This document shows positions 436 through 21,412 of a stretch of 23,222 bases of DNA, in pieces. The stretch is taken from IMG/VR virus record IMGVR_UViG_3300009593_000128, positions 1 through 23,222 of that record; one strand, given 5' to 3'. This stretch comes from a virus. The translations under genes were made by a program, and so were the position numbers. How positions within the stretch are numbered: position 1 is the stretch's first letter; every line of letters starts with the position of its first letter. The notes under the pieces were generated by a model. It was not told where the DNA came from. It did no database searches and saw nothing but the letters and a program-made list of their open reading frames with translations.

Positions 436-1197
436 ATGTCTCTACTAAAAGTCAATGAATTGAGACCCCAGTCAGGGTCAAACGTTACCATTCAAAGTGG
501 TTATACGTTACGTTTAGGTTCTAAGAACCTAGATGCTAGTAGTGTCATGCCATCTCCTAGTGGGCAGAATGGTAAGATACTTGTAAGTAATGGATCATCT
601 CGTAACTGGGAAGATCATGGTGCTGTCTCTATGTCGGTATGGACATCTAATGGTACATGGTCAAGACCTACTGGAGTAAAAAGAATTCTTGTTAGAATAT
701 GTGGTGCTGGTGGAGCAGGATCAGGTGTAGGAGAAGCTGGCGGTGCTGGTGGATACGCAGAAGAACTGATTGATGTCACTGGTGTTTCATCTATATCTGT
801 TACAGTAGGACAGCCTGGATCATGGGGTGGTACCTATTATTCTGGTGGTGCTGCTAACGGTAACTCAACATCCTTTGGTAACTATATGTCTGCCAGTGGT
901 GGAAATGGTGCCAATCGTAATTATCAACACTGTGGTGGACTTCCTGGGAGTGGCTCAGGGGGTAACCTAAATATCTACGGTGGTGGTGGATCAGGTCATG
1001 AATATTGGTCTGGTAACCTAGGTGGTGGTTCATTCTTCGGTGGATCAGGTGCTAGTGGACACCCTCGTGGAGGACACTATGCTTATAACTACCAATACAG
1101 GGCTGCTCAAGGCTCTGGTGGATCTCCTGGATACCACACTTCTAGACGAGGTGCTAGAGGAATGCAAGGTATCGTATGTGTCTGGAACTTTAGATAA
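436..1197 (+). CDS. Glycine-rich tail-fibre/adhesin protein, paralogue 2
   Basis: This 253-residue protein has a short N-terminal module (about residues 1-62) of the kind seen in small marine-phage fibre proteins, with SGYTLRLG and GKILVSNGSS motifs. Residues 68-92 form a beta segment (WTSNGTWSRPTGVKRILVRI) that leads into glycine-rich sequence as in glycine-rich fibre-tip domains. Residues about 93-235 contain the GTYYSG, TSFGNY, YQHCGG, GGNLNIYGGGG and SFFGG landmarks shared with its two neighbours. It starts three bases after the upstream stop and ends three bases before the next ATG, so the three are probably co-transcribed. The likely role is receptor recognition as part of a fibre tip. 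No chaperone domain or enzymatic motif is visible. Confidence 0.85.
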   Translation: MSLLKVNELRPQSGSNVTIQSGYTLRLGSKNLDASSVMPSPSGQNGKILVSNGSSRNWEDHGAVSMSVWTSNGTWSRPTGVKRILVRICGAGGAGSGVGEAGGAGGYAEELIDVTGVSSISVTVGQPGSWGGTYYSGGAANGNSTSFGNYMSASGGNGANRNYQHCGGLPGSGSGGNLNIYGGGGSGHEYWSGNLGGGSFFGGSGASGHPRGGHYAYNYQYRAAQGSGGSPGYHTSRRGARGMQGIVCVWNFR

Positions 1198-1199
1198 CT

Positions 1200-1955
1200 A
1201 TGTCAAACGTATACTGTAACGAACTCGACGCAGCGTCGGGAAATGCGATTTTAATACCCGATGGATATAATCTATCATTGGGTGGTACAACTCTGAATAG
1301 TAGTTCTATCCCACCTTCTCCCCTCAATCAAGGAGGTAAGTTTCTAGTAAGTAATAATTCAACAGCGGAGTTCCAATATCTTGGACCTTCGAGTATACAG
1401 ACTTTCTATAGTAGTGGATATTGGTACAGACCTACTGGCGTTAATAGAGTAATCGTTCGTGTCGTAGGTGGCGGTGGCGGTGGATCAGGTCATGCTGAGG
1501 CTGCTGGTGCTGGTGGTTATTCAGAAGAGGTTCTTGACGTACGTGGTATATCAAGTGTATACTGTACTGTCGGATCAGGTTCTGGAAGTGGTACATACTA
1601 TTCTGGAAATGGTGGCGGGGGTAATACGTCGTCCTTCGGGAACTACTTGTCTGCCTCTGGTGGACTAGGTGCTAACCAAACATACCAGCACTGTGGTGGA
1701 CTTGGAGGAGTAGGTTCAGGTGGTAACCTAAATATATACGGTGGTGGTGGAACAGGACATATTAACTATGTTGGTTTCGCTGGTGCTTCCTTCTTTGGTG
1801 GAGGAACGCTCAGTACACACGGTAACTGGGCACAGGGTGCAAGAAGCAATCAGCTTAAAGGTGCTAGAGGTGCGGGAGGTAACTGCGGTTATCAAAGATC
1901 GTATCAAGGTGCTAATGGTATGGCTGGTGCGGTTATCATTATGGAATTTATCTAA
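1200..1955 (+). CDS. Glycine-rich tail-fibre/adhesin protein, paralogue 3
   Basis: This 251-residue protein lines up almost without gaps with the preceding gene. Shared landmarks are the N-terminal GGKFLVSN motif near residue 45, a YWYRPTGVNRVIVRV strand at about 75-89, a GTYYSG motif near 131, the TYQHCGG and GGNLNIYGGGG motifs at about 161-184, and a final hydrophobic strand (AVIIMEF). The C-terminal 60 residues differ most, which is what one expects if the exposed tip is under selection for host range. It begins directly behind the upstream stop. The stop codon TAA at 1953-1955 lies inside a CTAAATA late-promoter-like motif that could serve the next gene. Function as an adhesin is inferred from the pattern; no enzymatic motif is visible. 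Confidence 0.85.
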   Translation: MSNVYCNELDAASGNAILIPDGYNLSLGGTTLNSSSIPPSPLNQGGKFLVSNNSTAEFQYLGPSSIQTFYSSGYWYRPTGVNRVIVRVVGGGGGGSGHAEAAGAGGYSEEVLDVRGISSVYCTVGSGSGSGTYYSGNGGGGNTSSFGNYLSASGGLGANQTYQHCGGLGGVGSGGNLNIYGGGGTGHINYVGFAGASFFGGGTLSTHGNWAQGARSNQLKGARGAGGNCGYQRSYQGANGMAGAVIIMEFI

Positions 1956-1979: not shown

Positions 1980-2495
1980 ATGGCTAAAAGTTGTCTAGTA
2001 GACTACCGAGGCTTCATCACAGATATCAGAGATGTAGGTGATGAGTTCGAGGTATATCAGGGAGATGATGCTCCTATTAAATGGGTCACATGCGATGACG
2101 ACAATGTGACAAATCTCTGGGTGCTTTATAATGGAGAGTTCTTCAATAGCGAGGATCGCTTAGAACGTAACCAAGATATGAAGCGCAAGGTTGAGTATGG
2201 TCAGATCGAGGATCAACTCGATATGATGTATTGGGACCAAATGAATGGTACTTCTACATGGAAGGATCATATTACAGCTACCAAAGCTAACATAGTTAAG
2301 CAGTCGGCTGCTGATGCTGATGCTACTTTCTATGCCGCTAAGAAAGAATTTGAGATGGGTACTGAAGAAGCACCGTGCTGGAATAGTCTTCCTGCCAACA
2401 AGCGTCAGAAGGTAACTGTCTTTAAGAACGCTACGACTTATGACCCAGGTTGGGGACCAGATCCCGTAACAGGTAGACCCGTATACACTGGATAG
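1980..2495 (+). CDS. Fibre-associated phage protein, possible fibre-assembly type
   Basis: This 171-residue protein is unidentified, but residues 73-90 carry a motif (YGQIEDQLDMMYWDQMNG) that resembles the YxxIxDQLDxxY segment found near the end of many small phage tail proteins and fibre-assembly proteins, followed by a helix (about 93-125). The N-terminal part (1-60) is short, acidic and probably beta-rich (VDYRGFITDIRDVG). The C-terminus is Gly/Pro-rich. It lies right after the fibre genes and before the halogenases, which suits a role as a fibre accessory or assembly factor. It ends with TAG followed directly by an in-frame TAA. The specific function is not established from sequence. Confidence 0.75.
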   Translation: MAKSCLVDYRGFITDIRDVGDEFEVYQGDDAPIKWVTCDDDNVTNLWVLYNGEFFNSEDRLERNQDMKRKVEYGQIEDQLDMMYWDQMNGTSTWKDHITATKANIVKQSAADADATFYAAKKEFEMGTEEAPCWNSLPANKRQKVTVFKNATTYDPGWGPDPVTGRPVYTG

Positions 2496-2510: not shown

Positions 2511-4073
2511 ATGAAAGTTGAAAAAATTTGTATTGTAGGTGGTGGCACCGCTGGTTGGATGACAGCAGCTACTCTTTGTAAGTTTCATCCAGAACTAGAT
2601 ATTACTTTAATTGAGTCAGAAGATATCCCACCTATAGGGGTAGGGGAATCTACTACTCAATTTTTTAAAGATTGGACTCGTGAATTAGGTCTTGCTGATC
2701 ACTGGATGGATGAGTGTGAAGCAACGTATAAGTATAGTGTAAAATTTGAGAACTTCAGTGAGTATGGTGATTTCCACTATCCTTTCTATGATGGTGGTGC
2801 CCCTGAGAACTCCAACTCAGACATACTAGAATGGTTCTTCCACGACTATGTGACAGGTCATAAACCTGACAAGTCATTTGCTGAGTGGATGGTACCTTAC
2901 TGGAGAGTCATTGAGGAGAACTTAGTTGTACCTGATGATTTCCCAAGCTTTGATTACAAAGCAAACGCAGGGTATCACTTGGATGCTAGTAAGTTTGCCA
3001 CGTATCTTAAGAGAGAATTTTGTCTTCCTCGTGGTGTCAAGCATATTTACGACACCATTACAGACGTAGAAAAGAATGAACATGGTGAGATCTCAAGACT
3101 TAATATGAAGTATGAGGCTGACCTATTCATCGATTGTACAGGTTTTAGATCTCTCCTATTAGGAGAGCATATGGGTGTTGAATGGGAAGAGTTCCCATTC
3201 CTTATTAACGATCGTGCTTGGGCTTGTAGAGTTAAGTATCAAGATAGATCTAAGGAGATGCTAAACCATACTAGGTGTACAGCACTTGATAATGGTTGGG
3301 TATGGCATGTACCATTGACATCTAGATTAGGTGTTGGGTATAACTTTGCTAGTTCCTTTACATCTGATGAAGATGCTTTAGAAGAACTGAAAGCACACCT
3401 AGGTGATCATGAGATCATAGGTGAACCACGTTTGATTACGTGGAAAAACGGTATGTCTAAAGAGATTTGGCATAAGAACGTTGTAGGTATTGGACTCTCT
3501 GGTGGGTTCATAGAACCATTAGAATCTAATGGACTACTGAGTGTACATAACTTTGCTATCTTCTTGGCAGATGCTCTGTCAATGCATGAGAATCGTAAGG
3601 TTAATAGTTTAATCAGGTCACAGTATAACTTCCGTTGTCGTAAGCACTTCGGTAACTTTGCTCACTTTGTGGGTAATCATTTCTTCATGACCACTAAAGA
3701 TGATACACCATACTGGGATTACATTAGTAGCAAGTGTGAGTACCTTGATGGTATGGCAAGACATGAGCACAAACCTTTCCCAGGTGATGAGTTCCCATTG
3801 AGGACTGATGAGATTAACAATTGGAAATTTGATAAGCTAGCTGGTAATTCTTATATTGCTGCTGGTCACAGGCACAGTCCATGTACGGGGTGGACAACTG
3901 ATTACCTTGAGAGAAGGAATCAACTTGACGTAACTTCCTTCAAGAAGTTAGAATCAGGATATGATTTACATGCCGATATCCATCGTGAGATCGACAAGTT
4001 CCCAACTCCTGAAGAATTTTATTATTGCGATGCCATAGCTGGTATCGATCACCCATACTATGAACACGCGTAA
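2511..4073 (+). CDS. Flavin-dependent tryptophan halogenase family protein (variant halide motif)
   Basis: This 520-residue protein matches the tryptophan halogenase family in length and layout. Residues 8-16 hold the FAD-binding GxGxxG-type loop (VGGGTAGWM). Residues 43-49 hold GVGESTT. Lys74, in an ATYKYSVKF context, corresponds to the catalytic lysine (Lys79 in PrnA). Residues 263-268 (WVWHVP) are the WxWxIP-type motif that blocks the monooxygenase reaction, with Val for Ile. Residues 335-341 (EPLESNG) contain the catalytic Glu338, but the family usually reads EPLESTG, so the halide-contacting Thr is Asn340. Known members use FADH2, O2 and halide to chlorinate or brominate tryptophan, free or in peptides. 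No flavin reductase is visible nearby, so reduced flavin would come from the host. The substrate is unknown. Confidence 0.9.
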   Translation: MKVEKICIVGGGTAGWMTAATLCKFHPELDITLIESEDIPPIGVGESTTQFFKDWTRELGLADHWMDECEATYKYSVKFENFSEYGDFHYPFYDGGAPENSNSDILEWFFHDYVTGHKPDKSFAEWMVPYWRVIEENLVVPDDFPSFDYKANAGYHLDASKFATYLKREFCLPRGVKHIYDTITDVEKNEHGEISRLNMKYEADLFIDCTGFRSLLLGEHMGVEWEEFPFLINDRAWACRVKYQDRSKEMLNHTRCTALDNGWVWHVPLTSRLGVGYNFASSFTSDEDALEELKAHLGDHEIIGEPRLITWKNGMSKEIWHKNVVGIGLSGGFIEPLESNGLLSVHNFAIFLADALSMHENRKVNSLIRSQYNFRCRKHFGNFAHFVGNHFFMTTKDDTPYWDYISSKCEYLDGMARHEHKPFPGDEFPLRTDEINNWKFDKLAGNSYIAAGHRHSPCTGWTTDYLERRNQLDVTSFKKLESGYDLHADIHREIDKFPTPEEFYYCDAIAGIDHPYYEHA

Positions 4074-5592
4074 AATATGTATTGTTGGTGGTGGTTCGTC
4101 TGGATGGATGACTGCTGCTGCTTTTGCTAAAAGATTTCCACACTATAAAATACAATTAATAGAGCACCCCTTCAAGAAACCCTTGAGTGTGGGTGAGTCT
4201 ACTCTTGGACATTTTAATCGTTATCTAGATTGTCTTGGCATTGATGATCGGGACTGGATGCCTGAGTGTAATGCCACTTATAAGCTATCAATTCAATTCA
4301 CCAACTGGAAAGGTCAGGGTGATGTCTTCCAATACCCATTCGGAGACACTGACTATACAGATGGTGATTTTTTAATGTGGTATTATCTACATCATCTGAT
4401 GCCAGATATATTTCCAGATACTACATTCTGTGAGTTCTATAATCCTATTAGTTACCTAGCACAGACTAATACAATTGTAGATCGTGATGACTATATTCGT
4501 AACTTTAAAAGAAGATGGGATACCTCTTACCACTTTGATGCTACTAAGTTTGGTGGTTGGTTGAGAGATAATATATGTCAGAATGTTGAACATACATATG
4601 CTGAGATCGTTGACTGTAAAAGAGATTTAAATAAGCTAACTGCTATAGTTGATAAGCAGGGTGATCAGTACGAAGCTGATTACTTTATTGATTGTACAGG
4701 TTTCAATTCTCTCCTATTGGGTAAGTTCTTAGGTACACCATTCTACGAGTTTAGTGATCTACCTAACAACAGTGCTGTTGCTGCTCATGTCCCTTACAAG
4801 GACAAGAGAGAGGAGATGAAGAACTATACTGATGGTAAAGCATTGAAGTATGGGTGGCTGTGGACTATTCCTTTATGGGATAGTATTGGTAAAGGATTCG
4901 TATACTCTGATAAGTTTTGTAATAAGGAATATGCTGAAAGTTTATTCAGAGAAGAGACTGGATGGTATGGTGAGGTAGATCATATTAAATTCCCACATGG
5001 TAAGAGACATTTGGGTTGGGTACAAAATGTTATTGGTATTGGTTTGTCATATGGTTTCTTGGAACCATTAGAATCTACTGGGCTCTTTACTACACATGAG
5101 AATATACTTAGACTGGTAGATGCGTTTGAACGTAGAGATGGACATATCACCCAGGTAGATGTTGATGGGTTTAATCATGCTGTAAGCTATGAGCTTGAGG
5201 CTATGAAAGAGTTTGTAGCATTACACTATACTCTGTCACCCAGGAACGACAGTGACTACTGGAGGTTCTATACTGAGAACAGTCCAGTCTCATATGAACA
5301 GATGTTTGACAAAATTGTAAGATCACCTAGAATGTATCAGGAGGTTCTACATTGCTTTAACATATCAAATGCTCCTAAAGACTTAGGAGGTCTCATCTAC
5401 ATAGCAGCAGGGTTGGGTTACCACCCTCTATCCCCTACTGATGTACAGTATAAAATAGCTAGAGGAGAGATCTCTATTGCTGAAGCACAGCACGCTAGAG
5501 ATAGGTATTTGAAATATAAGAAGAGTGTGCTAAAATACCTTAAGGAACAGCCAGTTCATTATGACTACCTAAAGAACAATATCTATGTTTAA
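4060..5592 (+). CDS. Flavin-dependent tryptophan halogenase family protein (canonical motifs)
   Basis: This 510-residue protein is a paralogue of the preceding one and overlaps its end by 14 bases, which indicates translational coupling. All hallmark motifs are intact: the FAD loop at 8-17 (VGGGSSGWM), SVGEST at 43-48, the catalytic lysine Lys75 in ATYKLSIQF, an exact WxWxIP motif at 266-271 (WLWTIP), and EPLESTG at 335-341 with catalytic Glu338 and halide-contacting Thr340. It is therefore likely to be active as an FADH2-dependent halogenase, given reduced flavin from the host. The substrate could be free tryptophan or a tryptophan or other aromatic residue in a protein; peptide-level halogenation is known in lanthipeptide pathways (MibH). 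The position among fibre and oxygenase genes makes a protein substrate an attractive but unproven idea. Confidence 0.92.
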   Translation: MNTRKICIVGGGSSGWMTAAAFAKRFPHYKIQLIEHPFKKPLSVGESTLGHFNRYLDCLGIDDRDWMPECNATYKLSIQFTNWKGQGDVFQYPFGDTDYTDGDFLMWYYLHHLMPDIFPDTTFCEFYNPISYLAQTNTIVDRDDYIRNFKRRWDTSYHFDATKFGGWLRDNICQNVEHTYAEIVDCKRDLNKLTAIVDKQGDQYEADYFIDCTGFNSLLLGKFLGTPFYEFSDLPNNSAVAAHVPYKDKREEMKNYTDGKALKYGWLWTIPLWDSIGKGFVYSDKFCNKEYAESLFREETGWYGEVDHIKFPHGKRHLGWVQNVIGIGLSYGFLEPLESTGLFTTHENILRLVDAFERRDGHITQVDVDGFNHAVSYELEAMKEFVALHYTLSPRNDSDYWRFYTENSPVSYEQMFDKIVRSPRMYQEVLHCFNISNAPKDLGGLIYIAAGLGYHPLSPTDVQYKIARGEISIAEAQHARDRYLKYKKSVLKYLKEQPVHYDYLKNNIYV

Positions 5593-6385
5593 CAGAAAGA
5601 AACCAAAAGCAAGATTCTTTAGTCTAGCATCAGGTGTCCATACATTGTACCCTGTAACTAAAGCTAGTGAGATGACACGAGCTTGGACAAAGGAAGAGAA
5701 GAGGGACTTTAAGGAAAGAGAAAATAAGTGTCCTTTTAATAAACTGATCATGGGTCAGCATCAGTTCCCTAGTTCTATTGGGAAGTGTCCTGCTATCAAT
5801 CAGATCATGAGGACTGGATACATAGTTCATGCTCCTGCTGACTTCAAGGTACATACCAATGGAGATGGTCATAGTATACTATTCACTACTACTCCATTCG
5901 CACCACCTGGATCAGACTATGTTGTACTCCATGATGAGAATGTATCCAAGTGGTTGATGGATTCTAGTAAGGATCAGACAATAGATCAGGTCATAAAGAT
6001 CAATACAACTTGGCGTGTACAGGCAGACGATGACATCGTATTCCTCCAAACAAAAGTACCATTCGTTAATGAGACTCGCTTCACAGCAATATCTGGTATT
6101 CTCGATCCACGTTCTGCTTATGAAGTCAATGTCCAACTCCACTGGCACGTGATGGAAGGAGATGAATGTATTAAAGCAGGTACTCCACTTGCTTGTTATA
6201 TCCCTATGTCTAGAAAGATGCTAGAGGGTGGTATTGATATGAGTATTGACTGTGCTACCCAAGAGGATTATAGATTGGAAGAGGAGTTCATGTATACAGC
6301 TTATAATGAGTTCCCTGAGAATGTCAATGTAACTGGTAGACAGTTGAAGACTAATAAGATATTGAGGAAGTTTTGGAATGGATAA
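5585..6385 (+). CDS. DUF6065-like protein of the tailoring cluster
   Basis: This 266-residue protein overlaps the upstream halogenase by 8 bases and the downstream oxygenase by 8 bases. It resembles the DUF6065 type seen in phages and in biosynthetic clusters: a CPAI motif at 68-71, a GYIVHAPADF segment at 78-87, a central Trp (143), and a probable beta-strand core (about 150-205) containing a LHWHV segment with His186 and His188. No known catalytic triad or nucleotide-binding site is visible. The fold is probably beta-rich. Location inside the halogenase/oxygenase run suggests it belongs to the same pathway, perhaps as a partner or substrate-handling protein. The family call is from memory of the motif pattern and is tentative. 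Confidence 0.7.
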   Translation: MFNRKKPKARFFSLASGVHTLYPVTKASEMTRAWTKEEKRDFKERENKCPFNKLIMGQHQFPSSIGKCPAINQIMRTGYIVHAPADFKVHTNGDGHSILFTTTPFAPPGSDYVVLHDENVSKWLMDSSKDQTIDQVIKINTTWRVQADDDIVFLQTKVPFVNETRFTAISGILDPRSAYEVNVQLHWHVMEGDECIKAGTPLACYIPMSRKMLEGGIDMSIDCATQEDYRLEEEFMYTAYNEFPENVNVTGRQLKTNKILRKFWNG

Positions 6386-6986
6386 TATAGTTCCTTTATT
6401 TTCTACTCCCTTCGCTAAGGGAAGGATCATACCTTCCGAATATGATGAAGCAGCGACTGAAGATTTGTTGAATAGATTATTTCTTGATAAGAAGTTAGGA
6501 GAGTTTGAAGGAGAAACAGGACTATCTACAGGACCACAGGATCTAACTCTACATGAAAAAGAACAGATGCAATGGTTGATGAAACCATTGACATATGCTG
6601 CTAGAGATTACTGGGTTAATATCTTAGGGTATAAAAAGATGATGACTATTGACTGTCATGATGGTTGGGCTAATAAGCATTTCGCTGGTGACTCAACTGT
6701 AGAGCACAGTCATAATGATGGATGGTGGGGTAAGTGTCAGGTATCCTGTGTATACTATTTCAAGAAACCATCTGGTTCATCTAACATTAGATTCTGTAAT
6801 CCATTAGATTATATCTTAAGGATGCAACCCTATGGTGGTATGAAAGGTACCTCTACCATATCAACTGAGTTCCCTGCTGAAGAGTATGAATATATACTGT
6901 TCCCCTCATGGGTTAGACACAGAGTAGAACCTAGTAGGGTAGGTCCACGTATTGCTATGTCATTTAATTACTATGGCCACGATTGA
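6378..6986 (+). CDS. Fe(II)/2OG oxygenase, Oxy_5 type (1 of 6 in cluster)
   Basis: This 202-residue protein has the layout of the 2OG-FeII_Oxy_5 family (PF13759): an N-terminal PLFSTPF segment (6-12), the metal-binding stretch EHSHNDG around His110/His112 (Asp114 is also close), a CVYYFKKPSGS strand and turn (124-134), and the C-terminal FPSWVRHRV motif with distal His181, followed by Arg191 in RIAMSFN, which would bind the 2-oxoglutarate carboxylate. Such enzymes hydroxylate or otherwise oxidise C-H bonds using Fe(II), O2 and 2-oxoglutarate. The substrate is unknown. It overlaps both neighbours, so it is co-translated with the DUF6065-like protein and the next oxygenase. Confidence 0.85.
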   Translation: MDNIVPLFSTPFAKGRIIPSEYDEAATEDLLNRLFLDKKLGEFEGETGLSTGPQDLTLHEKEQMQWLMKPLTYAARDYWVNILGYKKMMTIDCHDGWANKHFAGDSTVEHSHNDGWWGKCQVSCVYYFKKPSGSSNIRFCNPLDYILRMQPYGGMKGTSTISTEFPAEEYEYILFPSWVRHRVEPSRVGPRIAMSFNYYGHD

Positions 6987-7806
6987 TTGCTTTAATGTTC
7001 TTCCTATATCAAGAGAAGAATATTTAGAAAACCATCCTATCTTCAAACCTGCTGAAGAATGGAAATTTAAGTTCCACAGTTGGTTCTGGGAGGTATATGA
7101 TATATTCCAACCTGGTGGGTTAGATCTGTTTAAGAATATTGCTTACTGTTATCCTATAGAAGATGTTAACAATCAGGATAAAGCTCATGATCACAATCCT
7201 TTCCAGGTACATCACTTACCTTTCTGGATAACACAACCGTTATGTGAAGAGGTTAGAGCATTTGTAATTAAGGAACACTTTAAACAGGGAAGAGATTTAG
7301 AGTTCATTGATGAACGTTTATCAGAGTGGGGCAATATATACTGGAAGGATGACTGTCGTCCAGTATGTCATTCAAGAATACCCCATGTAGATTTCCCAGT
7401 GGATGAGGGGTGGATCGGTAATCTATGGTTGTCTAAACATGACGAAGGAGAAACAGCAACAAATCTCTACCAGTTTCAAGGAGCGATTGAAGAAGGAAGG
7501 TTTGATTTCCAACTCGATCAACGTCACCACAGGTATAAAGAATGGCACGAGTGGGTTGGAGACGGAAGAAATCACATCAAGCAGTGGGAAAATCTATCAA
7601 CTAAAGAAGCGATCCATTGGGGATTCATAAAGAAATCTAGTGCTCCCTGTGAGTATGGTACCATGACAATCTATAATGGTAACGTACCCCATTGCCCTTA
7701 TATCGCTGATAGTGTAAAATGGAGATGGAGTCATTGCTTTGGATTCAAATATAAGTCCCTAGCAAGAGTCTTTAAATCACCACTTGTAGGACAGCAACCT
7801 TATTAA
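6973..7806 (+). CDS. Fe(II)/2OG oxygenase-like protein (2 of 6)
   Basis: This 277-residue protein is assigned from motif geometry. HVD at 138-140 supplies a His-x-Asp pair, a GTMTIYNGNVPH segment ends in the candidate distal His240, and Arg251 sits in WRWSHCFGF where the 2-oxoglutarate-binding Arg is expected. The N-terminal 100 residues are rich in Trp, Phe and His and belong to no domain I can name. I chose the ATG at 6973, which overlaps the upstream gene by 14 bases as the two halogenases do; an in-frame ATG at 6952 would add seven residues. The downstream gene begins in a TAATG overlap. It could belong to a prolyl-hydroxylase-like or DUF family; the double-stranded beta-helix fold is inferred. 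Confidence 0.72.
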   Translation: MATIDCFNVLPISREEYLENHPIFKPAEEWKFKFHSWFWEVYDIFQPGGLDLFKNIAYCYPIEDVNNQDKAHDHNPFQVHHLPFWITQPLCEEVRAFVIKEHFKQGRDLEFIDERLSEWGNIYWKDDCRPVCHSRIPHVDFPVDEGWIGNLWLSKHDEGETATNLYQFQGAIEEGRFDFQLDQRHHRYKEWHEWVGDGRNHIKQWENLSTKEAIHWGFIKKSSAPCEYGTMTIYNGNVPHCPYIADSVKWRWSHCFGFKYKSLARVFKSPLVGQQPY

Positions 7807-8363
7807 TGTTCGTAGACGAAATATTCCCAACACCAGTATGGGGGTTTGATTTAGATTTCAATCTCTCTGATATAGAATACTGGTGTTACAGACAGAAGGA
7901 TGATTCTAATGGTAGAGTTATATCAAACGTTGGTGGATGGCAATCCGATGACATCAATGAGTTTGATGATACACCTTTAACACCTTTAATAGACTGGATC
8001 AATAAAGAAGCAACTCACTGGGCTAAGGATCTAGGTATACCATGTGACCCTAAGGTTTTCAATCTATGGGTTAATATAAATCCTAAGTTTTCTTACAACT
8101 CAGTACATGTTCACCCAGAAGCAAGGCTGTCAGGGTCTTTCTATGTACGAGCTCCTAAGGATTCAGGTGCTTTATGCTTTACTAGAGATAATGATTATGC
8201 TCTAGGAACGGTTGCTCCCAATGAGACTAGATATAGTAGTGCTGAGTGGATGTATGAACCTAAGGAGAATCGTGCTATAATATTTCCAGCATGGGTTAAG
8301 CACCACGTTAAAGCAAACCTATCCGAGAAGGATAGAATATCATTAGCATTTAATTTAAGATGA
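7806..8363 (+). CDS. Fe(II)/2OG oxygenase, Oxy_5 type (3 of 6)
   Basis: This 185-residue protein is a clear 2OG-FeII_Oxy_5 member (PF13759). It opens with IFPTPVW (6-12), the usual start of the family. Residues 98-104 (NSVHVHP) give the metal pair His101 and His103, followed by an LSGSFYVRAPKDSG strand and turn. The C-terminal motif FPAWVKHHV places the distal ligand at His166, and Arg177 in DRISLAFN is the likely 2-oxoglutarate contact. It starts inside the stop of the preceding gene (TAATG) and ends in an ATGA overlap with the next, so it is translationally coupled to both. It is a paralogue of the oxygenase at 6378. The substrate is unknown; related phage genes are often called putative prolyl 4-hydroxylases without biochemical proof. 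Confidence 0.87.
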   Translation: MFVDEIFPTPVWGFDLDFNLSDIEYWCYRQKDDSNGRVISNVGGWQSDDINEFDDTPLTPLIDWINKEATHWAKDLGIPCDPKVFNLWVNINPKFSYNSVHVHPEARLSGSFYVRAPKDSGALCFTRDNDYALGTVAPNETRYSSAEWMYEPKENRAIIFPAWVKHHVKANLSEKDRISLAFNLR

Positions 8364-8992
8364 TAGCTGACTTAAAGATAAAAGAAGTAAAGAACTTCCT
8401 ACCTGATTCTTTAGCAAATGAACTTCATGACATCATGACTAGCAGCCAGTTCCCTTGGTACTGGTTAGATGATGTTACTGCTGCTCCTTATGATAGGAAG
8501 GAAGTACCTGAGACTTATCATAGTCAACCAGGTATGCACCATACCCCTTGGGTAGATGGTAACGCTAGTGAATGGTTTCCTCACTTCTCTTTCATGTATC
8601 ATTACATAAGAGAGCAACTAGGTTTAGATCAACATATGTGGTACCTTGCTAGGATCAGATGTGGATTGAACTTTGCTACGTTTAGACCAGATCATAACTT
8701 ACATAACAGTCCACATGTTGACTACCCAGAGACTGCCTCTGGTAATCACTATACATGTCTGTATTATGTGAATGACTCTGATGGACCTACTGTAGTATTC
8801 CATGAGACTAAGCAATCAGAAGAGTATAATATTGCTTATCAATGCCATCCAGAAAAGAATAAGCTATTCATCTTTAATGGCAAACACTATCATGCCAGTT
8901 CATGTCCTAAGAATCATGATGCTAGAATAGCTCTCACTATAAACCTTGTTGAAAGAAAACCTAATGTGGAACGACTTCTTCGCGCAGCGTGA
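8360..8992 (+). CDS. Fe(II)/2OG oxygenase, prolyl-4-hydroxylase-like (4 of 6)
   Basis: This 210-residue protein shows the classical P4H-like motif set: His119-Val-Asp121 in an NSPHVDYPE context, a YTCLYYVNDSDGPTVVF segment typical of the jelly-roll core (131-147), a LFIFNGKHYHASS segment with distal His176 or His178, and Arg189 in ARIALTINL for 2-oxoglutarate. The N-terminus (VKNFLPDSLANELHDIM) is the helix that usually precedes the core in this family. It overlaps the upstream gene by 4 bases (ATGA) and the downstream gene by about 29 bases. It differs from the Oxy_5 members by having HxD rather than HxH, so the cluster mixes subfamilies rather than being a simple tandem duplication. The substrate is unknown. 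Confidence 0.85.
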   Translation: MIADLKIKEVKNFLPDSLANELHDIMTSSQFPWYWLDDVTAAPYDRKEVPETYHSQPGMHHTPWVDGNASEWFPHFSFMYHYIREQLGLDQHMWYLARIRCGLNFATFRPDHNLHNSPHVDYPETASGNHYTCLYYVNDSDGPTVVFHETKQSEEYNIAYQCHPEKNKLFIFNGKHYHASSCPKNHDARIALTINLVERKPNVERLLRAA

Positions 8993-9686
8993 TCTGTTTA
9001 ACAATGATGGATGTATTCATGTTGAGGGATTCCTAAAGGCATCTGAATCATATTGTGCCTGGAAGGATGTAGAGAACTCCATACATCGTGATGATGTGTT
9101 CTGGGAGTTGATAGCAGAGGATGGTAATAAGAAACAACTTGGCATGTACAAACCATACTGGTCACCAGTACCATGTCAAGAGAAGGAAGTTATATATGAA
9201 CACGTCAGAGATGGTGGTGGATTTGTTATCACTGGTTATAGTAGGGTTAATAGGAAAGCCAAGACACTATGCTCTGAAATAGAAAGACACTTTAATGTCA
9301 ATTGTGATATTCATTGCTATGGTACTAGAGGTAATGGTAGATCATTCAAAGCACATTACGATAACTTTTCCAATTTTATAATACAGACAGTTGGTGAGAC
9401 TAAGTGGACTGTATATAAGAACAGAGCAACTTCATTGTTTCGTGTACAACATGACAAACTCCAAGAGGATAAGTTAGAGGTTGAATGGGAAGGTATACTT
9501 AAGCCAGGAGATCTCATCTATATACCTGACAGAGCATATCACAAAGCAGAACCAAGTACTCAGAGATTGTCTATGAGTATCCCTTGCTTACCTACTATTA
9601 TGGAGAGTGAGTTTTATGACAGACGTTACTACGAGATCCCCAGTCTTGAAAGTCTGGAAAAACGCTATAAGCAAACCTCAGATTGA
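8964..9686 (+). CDS. JmjC/cupin-type Fe(II)/2OG oxygenase (5 of 6)
   Basis: This 240-residue protein resembles the JmjC/Cupin_4 ribosomal-oxygenase type. GRSFKAHYDNFSNFIIQTVG contains the metal pair His131 and Asp133, then GETKWTVYK carries Lys147 in the position that contacts 2-oxoglutarate in JmjC enzymes, and LKPGDLIYIPDRAYHKAEP gives the distal His193. RLSMSIPCLP follows as the last core strand. The best-known relatives (MINA53, NO66, YcfD) hydroxylate His or Arg residues in ribosomal proteins, so a protein substrate is more plausible here than for most of the cluster. I chose the ATG at 8964; an in-frame TTG at 8946 would add six residues. It overlaps its upstream neighbour by 29 bases and its downstream neighbour by about 71. 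Confidence 0.83.
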   Translation: MWNDFFAQRDLFNNDGCIHVEGFLKASESYCAWKDVENSIHRDDVFWELIAEDGNKKQLGMYKPYWSPVPCQEKEVIYEHVRDGGGFVITGYSRVNRKAKTLCSEIERHFNVNCDIHCYGTRGNGRSFKAHYDNFSNFIIQTVGETKWTVYKNRATSLFRVQHDKLQEDKLEVEWEGILKPGDLIYIPDRAYHKAEPSTQRLSMSIPCLPTIMESEFYDRRYYEIPSLESLEKRYKQTSD

Positions 9687-10230
9687 ACTCTTATACACAG
9701 AGTTTAGACTGATGAGAGATGCGTTACTTGCTATGGGAAGTAACGAAGGGTATAATGATCCTACAGTACCAGGATGTTTCTCTTGGTATTCTCCTCTATG
9801 TTTTGAGGCATTGAGCTTGTACTTAAAACCGTACATAGAGAAGCAATTATCGACGAATCTCCATCCGACCTACTCTTATGGTCGCATATATACTGAGGGA
9901 AGTGAGTTGGTTAAACACACTGACAGAAGGTCTTCAGAGATAGCAGTCAATCTATCAATCTCTAGGGATACCAGATGGGATCTCTTATTTGAATGGAAGG
10001 GGCAGACCCTACATATTGACTTACACCCTGGAGATGTGGTAATATATACAGGTCAGATCCCTCACTGGAGGGAGAAGTATACGGGCAAAGAGCACATCAA
10101 TGCTTTTATGCAATACGTATATGCTGATGGTCCTCACAAGGATCTTAAGTATGACACACGTCCCTATCTTGCTACTCCATATGCGTTAACCGAACAACAC
10201 ATCAAAGACGAAGTAAAAAATTATGTCTGA
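9616..10230 (+). CDS. Fe(II)/2OG oxygenase (6 of 6)
   Basis: This 204-residue protein has a compact 2OG-oxygenase core: YSYGRIYTEGSELVKHTD with His101 and Asp103, a SEIAVNLSIS strand, then a HPGDVVIYTGQIPHW segment with distal His150 and Arg152 close behind. These are strong hallmarks of the double-stranded beta-helix fold. I chose the ATG at 9616 because GGAGAG at 9602-9607 lies at normal ribosome-binding distance; an in-frame GTG at 9607 is the alternative. The unusually long overlap (71 bases) with the JmjC gene suggests strong compaction or a start moved upstream. The last residues overlap the next gene by 8 bases. The substrate is unknown. Confidence 0.82.
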   Translation: MTDVTTRSPVLKVWKNAISKPQIELLYTEFRLMRDALLAMGSNEGYNDPTVPGCFSWYSPLCFEALSLYLKPYIEKQLSTNLHPTYSYGRIYTEGSELVKHTDRRSSEIAVNLSISRDTRWDLLFEWKGQTLHIDLHPGDVVIYTGQIPHWREKYTGKEHINAFMQYVYADGPHKDLKYDTRPYLATPYALTEQHIKDEVKNYV

Positions 10231-10516: not shown

Positions 10517-10710
10517 CCATCGATGAAATGATTACCGACTTTACTGAACAGCAAAGTAAAGTTAAAGCAGAAGTAGCTGAACTTAAAGACGCTTTAAAGA
10601 CACGCGAAGAACAAATCCTTCGACTGTCAGGAGCAATCGAAGGACTTAGATTAGCTTCTCAGAATGATGAGAAGGAAGAAGGTAATAAGAAAGAACCGAA
10701 AGTTAAGTAA
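10513..10710 (+). CDS. Small coiled-coil phage protein, partner of the previous gene
   Basis: This 65-residue protein has no recognisable family. Residues 10-48 form one long amphipathic helix (EQQSKVKAEVAELKDALKT, then RLSGAIEGLRLAS), and the tail is Lys/Glu-rich and probably disordered. Its ATG overlaps the upstream stop (ATGA), which indicates coupled translation and perhaps complex formation with the 97-residue neighbour. It is the last gene of the rightward run before a convergent minus-strand gene, with which it overlaps by 8 bases at the 3' ends. Confidence 0.65.
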   Translation: MTIDEMITDFTEQQSKVKAEVAELKDALKTREEQILRLSGAIEGLRLASQNDEKEEGNKKEPKVK

Positions 10711-10996
10711 CTTCCATACCTAAAAACTTTGATGAGATCAAATCATGCTTCTCATCAAATTCATACCTTTGACGGGAATGGGTCTTATCTCCTTGTACTA
10801 TGAGATAATACCTCTTCCCGTAAATATTTTTTGTGGTACCTATCGCCATGATGGGTCTGTCTTCATACTTTTTACCAACCTCATGTGGAATTGTCTCTGG
10901 GGTTCCATCAAAAGGGGCATCCATTCTAGACCATAGATGCTCTCTAGTTCTGTACTCACCTATCGGTGCGTTTCTATCTCGGATTGTTCCAGGCAT
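10703..10996 (-). CDS. Hypothetical protein on the minus strand
   Basis: This is the only credible minus-strand gene. It fills an otherwise gene-free interval (10711-11039). Its 97-residue product looks like a genuine soluble protein: charged, with no stretches of low complexity, and with a probable beta-strand segment (GKRYYLIVQGDKTHSRQRYEF, residues 60-80) after a polar N-terminus. The plus-strand frames across the same bases are rich in Cys, Ile and Pro without domain-like patterns. There is no clear ribosome-binding site before its ATG, which weakens the call. It is convergent with the coiled-coil pair and divergent from the giant virion protein. Function is unknown. Confidence 0.55.
   Translation of the reverse strand: MPGTIRDRNAPIGEYRTREHLWSRMDAPFDGTPETIPHEVGKKYEDRPIMAIGTTKNIYGKRYYLIVQGDKTHSRQRYEFDEKHDLISSKFLGMEVT
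10728..10759. terminator. Inverted repeat near the convergent gene ends
   Basis: TTTGATGAGA at 10728-10737 pairs perfectly with TCTCATCAAA at 10750-10759 across a 12-base loop. It lies just past the stop of the rightward run and inside the 3' end of the minus-strand gene, where a bidirectional terminator or RNA-end stabiliser would sit. There is no T-run on either side and the stem is AT-rich, so it is not a standard intrinsic terminator and may simply be a chance palindrome in coding DNA. Confidence 0.25.
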
Positions 10997-11039: not shown

Positions 11040-14000
11040 ATGGCATCCCTTTTAGTAAAGGTAGCAGACTCAACAACTTTGGATGGTGCTCAGAATGCCA
11101 TCATCAGCCAGCATAGTTATTTAGAGTTTGTACGTTCCTTTAGAACATTTAAAACCATACAGTTCACGGCTCCCAGTGAGGACCAGGACTCTATAGATAG
11201 TATTCGCAGATTGCCATACGTAGTTGGTGCTACTTATGATAAGCCATTTGAGGTAGATCCTGTAGCTGAACCAGCAGTAGAGAATTTTGTATCTGGTGAT
11301 GGAGAGTTTAATGTCATCAATGATACTAATTCAGAAGTAGATACAGATAATAAATCGACAAGAATAGTAACAACTACAGGTGGCGGTACCATCTATGTAA
11401 AGGTAGCCAACTATAGTGGTAACTATCGTTTCCAATTCGCAAGCTCTCAGGGTGGTGTATACAATAGGATATCAACATACACAGGATTCGCTGAAGGTGG
11501 TACATATACATTCGACCAATCAGATTCATCAAACGCTGGTCATAGAATATTATTCTCATTAACTCCAGACGGTATCCATGCTGGTGGTTCTGAATGGACA
11601 ACTGGTATCAGCACTGCTGGTACTCCAGGATCTTCTGGTGCTTATACACGTATAACAGTTGGTGCTACAACACCGTCTGTGTTATACTGGTATAACGGAA
11701 GTAACTCTGACTACGGTTGTTATGACGATAGTCCTCTAAGATATGGTTGTCTTTGTATACATGACTTCTGGCATCTTGATAGAATCACTAAACAGAATAG
11801 GAGTTATCTGAATGGAAATTACTACTCTACAGAAGAGGCTGATGGTGTTGACCTGTACGTTCTTGATACTGGTGTTAGAGGAGCGTCGCGCCCGACTGGG
11901 ACCAATGTCGGACTCCATCCAGAGCTCTTCGATGTAACTAATAATTCAGACCTTAATGGTTTATCAGAACAACAGTCATACCGAGTGTATGAAGTAACAG
12001 GTTTTAGTTCAGGGTATACAGTCAATGGTACGGCCAACTCCAATGATGATGATAATGGGCACGGGACTTATTGTGCTGTGTTCGCTGGTGGTATTAAGGC
12101 AGGTGTCGCAAGAAAGATCAAAGTATATGCTCTGAAATGTTTTAGCTCAGTAGGTAGTGGAAACCTAACTGACATAATGAATGCTTATCAAGCTGTTATA
12201 GATCACAATGACTCAGGACACGCCAACTACAAAGGAAATACTCGTCCAGCAGTTATTAATGCTTCATTTGGTCCTACGACTCCTAGTGGTTCATTCCCGT
12301 ACATAGAGTTAAACGAATCAGGAACTGACGCAGGGTTTGACATCGAACTATATGACGAGACAGAGAAACAAGTAGTAGATAATAATATAGTTCTCGTTAG
12401 ATCTGCTGGTAATGGTTTCAAAGACTCTGGTGATAACTTCGCTGGACCTTTACAGACAAGATTTAAAGCTGGTGCTAGATCATCAGGTTATCAGGATGGT
12501 GACGTAAACATCTTTGATGTAAACATAGCATCCATATCTGTAGGTGCTACAGATTATAATGACAACTGGGCAGACTTCTCTAACTATGGATCAGGTTGTA
12601 CAACCACTGCTCCAGGTCAACACTTAACAGTCCCAGGATATAACTGGACTACCAATACTCCATACAGTAGTTCTGGTAACTACACCAACATTGGTGGTAC
12701 TTCATTCTCAGGTCCAATTACTGCTGGTATTGTATGTCAATTCATAGCAGATAAGAGTTATACTTTAAGTACAAGTACTTTACCTGCTTTATGTAAATCT
12801 TATGTCAGATCAACTGGTGGTATTGGTAGATACAGTGCTGTAAGTAGTGCAGCATATCCAGTTAACAGTTGTAGAGAAATTAAACTACCAAACAATCCAT
12901 TTGAAGTTTCTAATGGTAGTAATCAAGTAAAGGTATCATATAACCCTTCCGACTCTAGTGAGTTCCTGAATAAAATTGGTCAGAAGATTCAGTTAAGAAC
13001 TCCTACTATGCCTACTGTTGGTGGTATAAACATCGGAGATGCTTCTAGAAATTGGCATGGGATTATAGCACAGGATCCTACTAATAATAATATAACAATT
13101 CAATTAACCAACTCTGGTACATCAGACGAAACTGCTGGTGGAGCTGGTAACTACATGGCAGTCATGACTGGCACCCATGAGATAACAGATGGTCCTACAT
13201 TTGCTAACGTAGCTTTATATGCTGAACTTGACAGTGAAGAGTCAGGTCACACAGGTCGTACCGTTAATCAACTTCCAGTTGATTCAGGTGCTGACTTTGA
13301 TTTCCAATCAACTGATGATCTCTTAACCAGAGTAAGAGGGATGTTCAGTAAGTACATCCGTCTATCTAAGACTTGGTCCACATCTAGAGGTGACATCGTT
13401 TCTAATGCTGATGGACAAGGAACAGAGAGTGGACTGTTATGGATTGATACAGGACATTTTCCTTCTAACCAAACACCTTATTACATACAGTGTCAGTACC
13501 ATACAGAGATGTATGCTACTGTCAATCTAACAGGTAGTGGTGGTACTGCTATTAGAACATGGGATGTAACTGATGCTGGAAATGGTGCTTATCACTTCCT
13601 TGAGAAGGGAGTACCTATAGCATCTCAAACTATCACAGTAACTAATAGTGGTAGTACTGATTATGTTATAAGTGGTACTGATAGAACTACAACTCATAGT
13701 ACTGCTAATGATCCTACGGTAACAACGTGGGTCGGGGATACAATAACTTTCCAAGTTAACGCAAGTGGTCATCCATTCCTTATCAAAACAACTGCTGGTA
13801 CTGGTACTGGAGATCAAGTTTCTACTGGTGTAACAGGTCAAGGTGCTGAGACTGGAAACGTAGTATGGAATACAACTGGAGTAACACCAGGAACATATTA
13901 CTATCAGTGTCAACATCATGCTGATATGTACGGTTCGATCATTGTTGCTGAGCCAGGTGAGAGTGGTGATGATCCAACTATTAACGCAACTGTTGGTGAT

Positions 14001-16895: not shown

Positions 16896-17704
16896 TGGCA
16901 AAACCAGCAACTAGGAGTGCTCTTATAGAGTATTCCCTCAGAAAACTGGGAGCACCAGTTTTAGAAGTTAACGTAGATGATGATCAGATAGATGATCTCG
17001 TAGATGACGCTGTTCAATTCTTCAATGAGAGAAACAGTGATGGATACATTAGAACATTCTTGAAGTATAAGTTTGATCAAGCTACAGTAGATCTGATGAC
17101 TACAGATACTACAGAAACTATTACACAGGTAGGTGCTAGGGCAACAGATTTCCTCACACAGAATAATTTTATTAAGATGCCTGATCATGTGACTCAGGTG
17201 GTTAAGATATTTGATTTCACTTCAAAGAATACTACTAACATGTTTGATGTTAGGTATCAGTGGAGATTGAATGACCTATGGGATCTGACACAGACAGAGA
17301 TCCTAACATATGAGATGGTCAATAGAAGAATGGAAGATATATATTGGTTACTAGAAGGACAGAAACAGATTAGATTCCAGATGAGAGGAGATAAACTCTT
17401 TATGGATCTAGACTTTAAGACTGATGTTAACGACGGAGACTTCCTAGTATTTGACTGCTGGAGAGCATTAGATCCTACAGCAGACACTGACTTATACAAT
17501 GATATCTTCCTCAAGAGATATCTTACTGCTCTCATTAAGAGACAGTGGGGTCAGAACTTAAGTAAGTTTAAGGGTGCTCAGTTGCCTGGTGGTATTACTA
17601 TGAATGGTGAAGAGATACGTCTTGAAGGTCAGAGAGAAGTCGATGAGCTTGAAGATAAGATGATCAGCACATATGAAATTCCACCTATGGATATGATTGG
17701 ATGA
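16895..17704 (+). CDS. 13: Neck protein gp13 (head completion)
   Basis: This 269-residue protein matches the T4-like gp13 type: the N-terminal helix ALIEYSLRKLGAPVLEVNVDDDQ (residues 9-31) with IDDLVDDAVQFFNERNSDGY following, and a later segment with VFDCWRALDP and YLTALIKRQWGQNL. T4 gp13 is about 309 residues. With gp14 it closes the filled head at the portal vertex so that the tail can join. Its ATG overlaps the stop of the giant protein (TAATG) and its stop overlaps gp14 (ATGA), the standard T4-like order. Confidence is high from the motifs and from the following gp14-gp15-gp16. Confidence 0.92.
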   Translation: MAKPATRSALIEYSLRKLGAPVLEVNVDDDQIDDLVDDAVQFFNERNSDGYIRTFLKYKFDQATVDLMTTDTTETITQVGARATDFLTQNNFIKMPDHVTQVVKIFDFTSKNTTNMFDVRYQWRLNDLWDLTQTEILTYEMVNRRMEDIYWLLEGQKQIRFQMRGDKLFMDLDFKTDVNDGDFLVFDCWRALDPTADTDLYNDIFLKRYLTALIKRQWGQNLSKFKGAQLPGGITMNGEEIRLEGQREVDELEDKMISTYEIPPMDMIG

Positions 17705-19032
17705 GAAATACTTTCTTCACACACGGTACTCGTAACGAACAGTTCCTACAACAGGATCTTACGGAAGAGTTTCTTAAGATGTTTGGGATGGATGTACTAT
17801 ACATCCCCAGACAGCTCGTACGGAAAGATGGTGTCTTCAATGAAGAGGTCATCTCACAGTTTGATGACTCATATATTATTGAGGCATACCTAGAGAACTT
17901 TGATGGGTTCCAAGGTGGTGGAGATTTACTTACTAAGTTTGGTATCAGACAGACTGATGAGATAACTATGGTTATTTCTCAGGAAAGATTTTCAAATCTC
18001 ATCTCACAGTTTCTATTGTTAGATGATGATATAGAAGTAGGAGAGAGACCTGAAGAAGGAGCATTGATATACTTCCCACTATCATCTAATTACTTTGAGA
18101 TCAAATTTGTAGAACACGAAGAACCTTTCTACCAGCTTGGTAAGAACTACGTTTACAAACTTAAGGCAGAACTCTTCGATTACAGCGACGAAGGTGGAGA
18201 GTTCTTTGCTGGAGACGAGGAGCTTATCGATACTGGATACACAGTACAGTACTACTATTTGGTTAACCCAGGTACATCATGTGCTGGTACTCCTATTATT
18301 ACAAACGGAGCTATATCACAAGCTGTAGTTACAACCAATGGATCTAAATACAATTTCACTCCTACAGTCACAGTGACTGGAGATGGTACTAACGCAACAG
18401 TTCATGCTGAAATGATTGTTGCTAATGTAGCAGGGAGTAATCCTACCAGAGCTGCTGTACTTGATCCTACTGTAGTTAATGGTAAGATGACCGCATTAAC
18501 TATACTAGATCCTGGAGCTGGTTATGATATATCTCGATCTTTTGTCGATTTTACTACTCCTCCTAGTGTTGGATCAAAACCCGTTGTGGTTCCTACTTTC
18601 GACTCGGCTGGTGGACTCACTAAAGTTGAGATAACTAATGAAGGAAGTGGATATGATTCTGTAGAAAGAATAGTAATTGACTCTGCTGGTAGTGGATATA
18701 CTACTGCTGCTTTTACGATACAGACTGTACCTAGTGGGCTAACTGGTAACTTCACTGATGGTGAGACAATTACTGGTGGTAATACAGGTGGTACGGCTAT
18801 GGTTGCTGACTGGGATAAGAGTGATGGATGGCTTAAACTCAAGTCACCAACAGATGACTTTGAGATAGGAGAATTGCTTGTAGGTAATACTTCTGGAGCG
18901 TCTGTCACTATACATAGTTTTGACGCAATGAAAACAACAGATACTAAGTTCTCTGATAGTGCTCTATTCGAGACAGAAGCTGATGATATCGTTAACTTCA
19001 GTGAAGGAAACCCATTTGGAATAGCTACTTGA
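17701..19032 (+). CDS. 14: Neck protein gp14 with large beta-rich insertion
   Basis: Residues 1-186 are the gp14 core, with TFFTHGTRNEQFLQQDLTEE at the start, DVLYIPRQLV at 31-40 and YFEIKFVEHEEPFYQLGKN at about 131-149. Residues about 406-443 look like the family's C-terminal tail (ADDIVNFSEGNPFG). Between them lies an insertion of about 220 residues that T4 gp14 (about 256 residues) lacks. It contains GxGY-type repeats (DPGAGYD, NEGSGYDS, SAGSGYT, about 265-335) and a GETITGG module (about 350-405) common in marine-phage structural proteins. The insertion is probably an exposed beta-rich decoration on the neck. The core role, joining the head to the tail together with gp13, is inferred from the family. 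Confidence 0.9.
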   Translation: MRNTFFTHGTRNEQFLQQDLTEEFLKMFGMDVLYIPRQLVRKDGVFNEEVISQFDDSYIIEAYLENFDGFQGGGDLLTKFGIRQTDEITMVISQERFSNLISQFLLLDDDIEVGERPEEGALIYFPLSSNYFEIKFVEHEEPFYQLGKNYVYKLKAELFDYSDEGGEFFAGDEELIDTGYTVQYYYLVNPGTSCAGTPIITNGAISQAVVTTNGSKYNFTPTVTVTGDGTNATVHAEMIVANVAGSNPTRAAVLDPTVVNGKMTALTILDPGAGYDISRSFVDFTTPPSVGSKPVVVPTFDSAGGLTKVEITNEGSGYDSVERIVIDSAGSGYTTAAFTIQTVPSGLTGNFTDGETITGGNTGGTAMVADWDKSDGWLKLKSPTDDFEIGELLVGNTSGASVTIHSFDAMKTTDTKFSDSALFETEADDIVNFSEGNPFGIAT

Positions 19033-19033
19033 T

Positions 19034-20041: not shown

Positions 20042-20444
20042 TGACAACTATGGGGGTTTGGATAAAGCATTCAATACTGTTGAAGCTCTAAACAATCCAA
20101 CTCCAAAAAAGAAACCTGCTAAAAAGATCTCTGAAGATCAAGTGGGAGATGACCATGAGTATGCGAGAGCAAACTTATATTCTCTTATAGAGAAAGGTCA
20201 AGAGGCAGTCGATGGTGCTTTAGATGTAGCACAAGGTAGTGACCATCCCAGAGCATATGAAGTTGCTGGACAATTAATTAAGCATGTAGGTGATGTTGCT
20301 GACAAACTTATGACTCTCCAAAAGATGACTAAGGATGTCAAAGAAGAAGCTAAGAGAGGACCATCAACTGTGAACAATGCCCTATTCGTAGGGAGCACAG
20401 CGGATCTCCAGAAGATGTTAAAGAATGCTTCCAAAGATAAATAA
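20034..20444 (+). CDS. 16: Small terminase subunit gp16
   Basis: This 136-residue protein has the small-terminase layout of T4-like phages: a short variable N-terminus with a Lys-rich stretch, a helical core (YARANLYSLIEKGQEAVDGA, then HPRAYEVAGQLIKHVGDVADKLMTLQKMTKD), and the C-terminal VNNALFVGSTADLQKML motif, which corresponds to the NATVFMGSPTEL segment of T4 gp16. It binds DNA and regulates the gp17 nuclease/ATPase during packaging. gp17 does not follow directly; several small genes and a fibre gene come first, so it must lie outside the window. The gene overlaps gp15 by 8 bases. Confidence 0.88.
   Translation: MDNDNYGGLDKAFNTVEALNNPTPKKKPAKKISEDQVGDDHEYARANLYSLIEKGQEAVDGALDVAQGSDHPRAYEVAGQLIKHVGDVADKLMTLQKMTKDVKEEAKRGPSTVNNALFVGSTADLQKMLKNASKDK
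20436..20443 (+). promoter_or_regulatory. Late-promoter-like motif GATAAATA
   Basis: GATAAATA matches the NATAAATA late consensus and lies 23 bases before the ATG at 20467. It overlaps the last codons and stop of gp16. It probably drives the structural protein gene that follows. Confidence 0.5.
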
Positions 20445-21230: not shown

Positions 21231-21412
21231 TGCAATTTCATGAACAAGATGTAGCACACCTACTCCAAGCCTGTGACTACTACAAGTCTGCTCACCCAGT
21301 AGTAGGAACTGAATATGATAGATTGATCCATAAGGTCGAGAGTTATCGATCCGAAATGGAATGTGCAGACTGTAATTATGTAAAATGTGAAATACATGGT
21401 AGCGTATCGTGA
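21230..21412 (+). CDS. Small Cys-rich protein with a possible zinc site
   Basis: This 60-residue protein starts in a TAATG overlap with its upstream neighbour. The N-terminal two thirds is helical (HEQDVAHLLQACDYY, then EYDRLIHKVESYRSEME). The C-terminus carries CADCNYVKCEIH, a compact C-x2-C-x4-C-x2-H pattern that could bind zinc. It overlaps the next gene by 17 bases. The function is unknown. Confidence 0.6.
   Translation: MQFHEQDVAHLLQACDYYKSAHPVVGTEYDRLIHKVESYRSEMECADCNYVKCEIHGSVS

Follow-up and report, generated by a model that had tools for sequence, protein, structure and literature searches.

A stretch of DNA of 23,222 bases from a T4-like cyanomyovirus (IMG/VR record IMGVR_UViG_3300009593_000128, positions 1 to 23,222, called here the window) carries at 2511-10230 a cassette of enzyme genes that follows one type of glycine-rich adhesin. 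From the left edge the order is three glycine-rich fibres, the first of them cut, a phrog_1787 protein, two flavin-dependent halogenases, a phrog_7084 protein and six putative oxygenases. This order recurs in dozens of contigs, far above chance, and the large contiguous set is a recurrent cyanophage cassette. We consider that the fibres and enzymes probably form a mobile adhesin module, whose enzymes would halogenate and hydroxylate the fibre tip. The catalytic residues are intact, linkage and order are strict, the module is exchanged as one block and a signature in the tip is found only with a halogenase; the fibre fold is predicted. From these we infer that the fibre is the substrate, which of its residues would be modified and what the effect on binding would be.

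The nine open reading frames (ORFs) of 2511-10230 are all on the plus strand, each overlaps or abuts the next and their ATG starts were verified. A first-pass annotation, made from the sequence alone, had described two paralogous flavin halogenases and six consecutive oxygenase-like proteins with almost no spacing, and the ORFs, Pfam and phrog assignments confirm this.

Linkage was counted with the adhesin as query, in viral-contig loci with at least 3 kb of sequence downstream. The adhesin is followed by phrog_1787 and then a halogenase in 61/61 loci, phrog_7084 is present in 59 and oxygenases in 60 of the 61. Twenty GenBank phage records match the adhesin, the same 20 match phrog_1787, and a halogenase adjoins in 20/20; the background rate of any halogenase match is ~56 in ~463 cyanophage records. 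Where 22 records were searched whole, the adhesin was found only if a high-scoring ('fibre-class') halogenase match or a cut remnant was present, and those of the 22 with low-scoring halogenases only, or with none, had no adhesin. The first-pass annotation had proposed a neighbourhood search of this kind, and had named as its adverse outcome sets that lie consistently away from fibre genes or in phages lacking such fibres; linkage and joint exchange were found instead.

The gene order of S-RIM44 is identical to that of the window, and Sf-FP1 has the same order with one halogenase; three glycine-rich fibres are in tandem in both. Variants of the cassette occur in Syn9, P-TIM40, S-WAM1 and P-RSM6. 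The largest version among the annotated loci compared is that of S-CREM1 (14291-19781), in which nine consecutive 2-oxoglutarate (2OG)/JmjC genes follow the fibre, phrog_1787, a halogenase and phrog_7084. Pelagibacter phage HTVC008M contains pieces of the cassette, scattered. The same order is found in differing contexts: gp13 lies close downstream in 36 loci, and the Syn9, P-TIM40, S-WAM1 and P-RSM6 types have no gp13 nearby. Minimal loci consist of fibres, phrog_1787 and halogenase, with few or none of the remaining cassette families detected, and because these loci keep it the halogenase is the most constant enzyme. The phrog_7084 protein is absent from several fibre-halogenase cassettes (S-WAM1, P-RSM6 and minimal loci). 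The large contiguous set beside adhesin genes, to which the first-pass annotation had drawn attention, is therefore present but not unique, as multi-halogenase sets are already found in public cyanophage genomes; what is new is the tight tracking of one adhesin type by the cassette.

Two isolates of S-RIM44 differ by the whole block. From a point shortly before gp13 onward, Np_42 and Np_05 share 95-97% identity; in the region compared, Np_05 and Syn1 are 99.9% identical. The isolates differ throughout the interval from the distal giant fibre to just before gp13, which in Np_42 holds three glycine-rich fibres and the whole cassette and in Np_05 a phrog_2415 protein and one Oxy_5 protein. P-HM2 shares the flanks of the window (a 65-residue ORF, the giant protein and gp13-gp16) with different genes between them; all nine families of the cassette and fibres are missing from it. 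At the same place Sf-CH11 has other putative adhesins with their own halogenase and oxygenases. The giant protein at 11040-16895, which had been suggested as a target, was set aside as substrate because its homologue is found at the same place in P-HM2 without cassette or glycine-rich fibres.

PDB profile searches of the adhesin and the phrog_1787, phrog_7084 and phrog_2954 proteins gave no meaningful match, and the adhesin and phrog_7084 were therefore studied by predicted fold. The AlphaFold model of the adhesin at 436..1197 has a mean predicted local distance difference test score of 87.6. In Foldseek its best match is the Pam3 glycine-rich receptor-binding fibre 7ypx (E-value 4e-8, template modelling (TM) score 0.54); 7yfw also matched. 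The model predicts a glycine-rich layered distal domain of the Pam3 gp24 type, with a putative role in receptor binding. Adhesins of the Pam3 gp24 and S16 gp38 type have a glycine-rich stem with distal loops, and the predicted fold of the window adhesin is alike. The phrog_1787 protein is perhaps a fibre chaperone or docking factor.

The tip of Pam3-type fibres is described as hypervariable, whereas cassette-linked tips keep a Glu, a Tyr and two His residues and are followed by a halogenase. In 309 distinct adhesins, those of minimal loci included, E100, Y135, F147, H165 and H188 are nearly invariant. As a test of whether the fold needs this signature, a DNA pattern that marks where glycine-rich domains of any kind begin was run against viral contigs; the pattern was chosen without reference to the signature. 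Among loci with enough sequence a halogenase is present in 14/14 where E100/Y135 are found and in 0/53 where they are absent (Fisher 1e-14, with descent not corrected for). By sequence position the signature residues stand after glycine strands, and on this basis they would lie in distal loops of the receptor type in the window adhesin; in the Pam3 fibre such loops were proposed as the receptor site (PMC9608196). Tryptophan had been proposed, with other aromatic residues, as the target of halogenation, and for tryptophan this is not supported: what cassette-linked fibres conserve is E100, Y135, H165 and H188. In one lineage that lacks OXB, an Oxy_5-type member of the cassette, and the JmjC enzyme (L118-L126, L132, L138, L139, L144, L154), Trp209 and mostly also Trp181 replace His/Tyr of the adhesin, and this lineage may have a different set of halogenase targets.

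Of all fibre columns, that of Gln164, the residue preceding His165, best predicts the presence of OXB: Gln is found in 78 of 82 contigs with OXB vs 1 of 20 others, and lineages without OXB have Arg, or Ser/Ala/Gly, at 164. The JmjC enzyme was rejected as the correlate of Gln164, since the L046/L127/L128 lineage has lost JmjC yet keeps OXB and Gln164. The phrog_7084 tree yields two independent pairs, and in most draws both fit the association. With only two such pairs the association of OXB with Gln164 is a lead and not proof.

The two halogenases of the window are 35% identical to each other, which indicates paralogues and not a recent duplication. Both contain the GxGxxG and WxWxxP motifs and the catalytic Lys and Glu (K79 and E346 of PrnA). 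Among 239 distinct halogenase sequences from the loci compared, the Lys is present in 239 and the Glu in 238. VirX1 is an iodinating viral halogenase. This enzyme of cyanophage Syn10 (PDB 6QGM) stands nearest to halogenase 2 among solved structures. Syn10 resembles the window in that the same fibre, phrog_1787 and phrog_7084 are neighbours of the halogenase. VirX1 is the only one of these phage halogenases for which an activity assay is known; halide-dependent activity with reduced FAD is putative for the window enzymes. VirX1 is known only in vitro, on free aromatics, with no native substrate stated in the part of the paper available (PMC8407142), and a partnership with the adhesin is what the present comparison adds. 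A scan of viral contigs with halogenase 2 as a single protein gave no matches, and alignment queries were required instead. In many marine contigs (L085, L096, L162, L171 and others) one or two extra halogenases lie on the opposite strand once the cassette has ended. Phage halogenases of another class, with lower scores (L009, L012 and similar), are found near psbA, talC, hli or elsewhere, without the adhesin.

The oxygenases are of several types (Oxy_5, JmjC_2 and P4H-like families) and not a tandem duplication, as the first-pass annotation had noted, since the pairs compared are only 19-30% identical. The HxD/E...H facial triad is invariant or conserved in alignments of phrog_1644, phrog_274, JmjC and phrog_2954 (in the JmjC family H132, D134 and H194 are invariant) and OXA has HxHxD, but OXB has only HxH, which is present in all aligned members with no HxD conserved among relatives. 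The proteins at 6973, 8360 and 9616 have no significant Pfam match and were placed in phrog_1644, phrog_274 and phrog_2954. In cyanophage records these families are labelled 'minor coat protein', 'endonuclease V' and 'ferrochelatase' respectively; because they retain HxD...H, these labels are misleading and look wrongly propagated. The nearest solved relatives of the JmjC protein are the histidyl hydroxylases NO66 and MINA.

The protein at 5585-6385 had been called DUF6065-like (PF19541). This assignment was rejected: the protein itself has no match, and 2 of 50 family members match below threshold (best E-value 0.019). Its predicted fold matches dUTPases (E-value 6e-4, TM score to target up to 0.64). 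A GILDP sequence resembles dUTPase motif 3 by eye only, and other dUTPase motifs were not established.

The module may therefore be described as two or three paralogous receptor-binding tips, a phrog_1787-type partner and enzymes that would finish the tips post-translationally. Flavin halogenases of VirX1 class, one or two per module, would place a halogen on an electron-rich, exposed aromatic or imidazole side chain of the tip, either the invariant Tyr135 or an invariant His. A variable set of 2OG oxygenases would hydroxylate residues beside the halogenated one; among them the JmjC enzyme, being of NO66/MINA type, points to His or Arg as its target, and the presence of OXB tracks Gln164. The altered tip would then bind the cyanobacterial receptor. 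The VirX1 active site is wide and open (PMC8407142), which fits a bulky substrate. A dedicated modification pathway, as first proposed, is supported in the form of adhesin tailoring by the way that the fibre predicts the cassette, by the presence of the module in at least two genomic contexts and by joint exchange. We suggest more tentatively, as a real possibility, that a virus-encoded system of halogenation and multiple hydroxylation of its own receptor-binding tip is passed on as one cassette, and that the enzymes present dictate the residues of the tip (OXB with Gln164, JmjC with tip His); host recognition would then be set by side-chain chemistry in addition to sequence.

Several observations weigh against adhesin tailoring. 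In Sf-CH11 and several contigs, halogenases of this class are present although the fibre is not; the halogenase family is therefore not exclusive to fibre tailoring. S-B64 has a halogenase unlinked to its divergent glycine-rich fibre, which lacks E100, Y135 and H165; a search for fibres of the S-B64 kind found a single locus. The fibre loci are phylogenetically non-independent, and the link between OXB and Gln164, with two to three independent events, is not significant on the tree. Linkage inside a host-range island could mean co-transfer with no relation of enzyme to substrate. Mass spectrometry of virions exists for S-SZBM1 and S-CREM1 and no such modification is reported in the portions of those studies available; a search of the S-SZBM1 text did not turn up the glycine-rich fibres gp48/gp49. 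The predicted dUTPase-like fold of the phrog_7084 protein is odd in a protein-tailoring set.

The main rival explanation is a small-molecule substrate: during infection the enzymes would produce or alter a host metabolite, such as a halogenated, hydroxylated indole or phenol, and would travel with adhesin genes since both are host-specific. VirX1 halogenates many free heterocycles (PMC8407142), and the phage prnA gene has been published as a means of antibiotic protection or metabolite stabilisation (PMC2984593, PMC10452541, PMC9964418). In several phages the neighbours of lower-scoring halogenases include psbA and further auxiliary metabolic genes, and bacterial relatives lie beside TonB receptors in 4/5 loci checked, which is compatible with imported aromatics. 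The cassette, however, has no scaffold-building gene, it keeps a strict order and is exchanged in one block with a single adhesin type in several genera, and the signature residues of the fibre track the halogenase; we consider a metabolite substrate unlikely. It is rather more improbable that the cassette is a passenger on a hyperplastic host-range island, beside the adhesins but with no functional tie to them. The interval from the giant fibre to gp13 is indeed hypervariable, being different in each of Syn1, S-H9-2, P-HM2 and Sf-CH11, and marine metaviromic islands often contain Fe(II) oxygenases as well as recognition genes (PMC3909814), but random riders would not yield 61/61 and 0/53 with a fixed order, nor would they put that set into the Syn9-type context, which is away from gp13.

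Modification of nucleotides or DNA, in which the halogenases, 2OG oxygenases and dUTPase-like protein would make or protect a modified base, appears very improbable. The predicted dUTPase fold of phrog_7084 favours it, and cyanophage 2OG oxygenases have been proposed for DNA repair (PMC3037559, PMC2984593). Yet phrog_7084 is missing from several of the fibre-halogenase cassettes, the cassette sits with fibres, and the 'endonuclease V' labels fall on HxD...H proteins. We also find it highly unlikely that the conserved Glu, Tyr and His serve as a metal site or structural core of the tip, themselves unmodified, while the enzymes act on another virion protein, for example the giant fibre, whose tip may carry the adhesins. 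E100, H165 and H188 resemble a 2-His-1-carboxylate set, judged by sequence only, and the distal part of the giant fibre changes along with the module; however, modules of the Syn9, S-WAM1 and P-TIM40 types adjoin different long fibres, and other glycine-rich fibres lack the signature.

So far, phage halogenases and the many 2OG oxygenases of cyanophages have been catalogued under auxiliary metabolism or DNA repair. Individual ones were listed in 2010 (PMC3037559, PMC2984593), and also in S-CREM1 and S-SZBM1; in the open-access literature we found no paper that ties the halogenase/oxygenase set to a specific adhesin, subscription papers being outside this search. As tailoring of the adhesin supplies a specific candidate substrate, and S-RIM44 with and without the block is a natural control pair, a long-open question can be reduced to one mass-spectrometry experiment. 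If the proposal is true, side-chain chemistry joins sequence variation in determining phage host recognition, and halogenases acting on folded protein become usable tools.

Proteins of the NO66, MINA and YcfD type hydroxylate His or Arg in proteins. The JmjC protein of the window shares with them (PF08007) the JmjC core with HxD...H; it differs in being short (240 residues) and phage-encoded, and its protein substrate is putative. Clusters for ribosomally synthesised and post-translationally modified peptides (RiPPs) have, as in the window, a halogenase and oxygenases beside the polypeptide possibly modified. 5UAO is presumably MibH, the NAI-107 halogenase, which acts on Trp at the peptide level in RiPP tailoring. 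Unlike in RiPP systems, the substrate in the window would be a folded structural adhesin, and 5uao scores only 139-143 bits against the window halogenases. No small leader-bearing RiPP precursor was noticed in the window, though no dedicated search was made. A looser parallel is found in proteobacterial TonB-receptor clusters, in which halogenases, often in tandem, lie beside a cell-surface protein. The best relatives in bacterial genomes reach no more than 36% identity with the phage halogenase, and the bacterial loci checked had no such fibre or oxygenase order. The flavin halogenases near TonB-dependent outer-membrane receptors are those of loci L415, L449, L386 and L438, and are tandem in two of these.

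The features of the module are listed in Table 1.

Table 1. Genes of the putative adhesin module in the window. Three ORFs extend upstream of their ATG: 6952 (ATG 6973)-7806, 8946 (ATG 8964)-9686 and 9607 (ATG 9616)-10230.
Feature	Position	Strand	Details
Glycine-rich fibre paralogue, 3' part, cut by contig start	1..432	+	fibre profile 166 bits
Glycine-rich adhesin, phrog_863, PF21722	436..1197	+	signature E100, Y135, Q164, H165, H188, H209
Second glycine-rich adhesin	1200..1955	+	53% identical to 436..1197 adhesin over 251 aligned residues
phrog_1787-type small protein, between adhesins and halogenase 1	1980..2495	+	
Flavin-dependent halogenase 1	2511..4073	+	PF04820 1.4e-92; phrog_2928; VirX1 310.7 bits
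Flavin-dependent halogenase 2	4060..5592	+	PF04820 2.6e-95; phrog_2928; VirX1/6QGM E 2e-129, 436 bits
phrog_7084 protein, predicted dUTPase-like fold	5585..6385	+	
2OG-Fe(II) oxygenase OXA, Oxy_5 type	6378..6986	+	PF13759 5e-11; H110-x-H-x-D114
Putative 2OG oxygenase, phrog_1644	6973..7806	+	HxD plus distal His and Arg conserved
2OG-oxygenase-like OXB, Oxy_5 type	7806..8363	+	PF13759 4e-22; HxH
Putative 2OG oxygenase, phrog_274	8360..8992	+	HxD...H in family alignment
JmjC_2 oxygenase, 240 aa	8964..9686	+	PF08007 6.5e-19; NO66 3.6e-15
P4H-like putative 2OG oxygenase, phrog_2954	9616..10230	+	HTD...H

Downstream of the cassette a 97-residue ORF on the minus strand (10703-10996), which has no Pfam match, lies in a gap between plus-strand genes. 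The giant protein that follows (1951 residues) contains a Peptidase_S8 (subtilase) domain (5e-25, with the stretch scanned alone) and then repetitive domains. The region 16895-20444 holds the head-tail adaptor, neck, sheath stabiliser and small terminase genes; the nearest gp13 among those compared is that of Prochlorococcus phage P-HM2 (68% identity). A seventh Oxy_5-type oxygenase gene (phrog_81) at 21387-21927 is broken by a single in-frame TAG at 21762-21764. Its frame is open past the TAG and the distal His/Arg part is retained, so that a pseudogene, a sequencing error and stop read-through are all possible.

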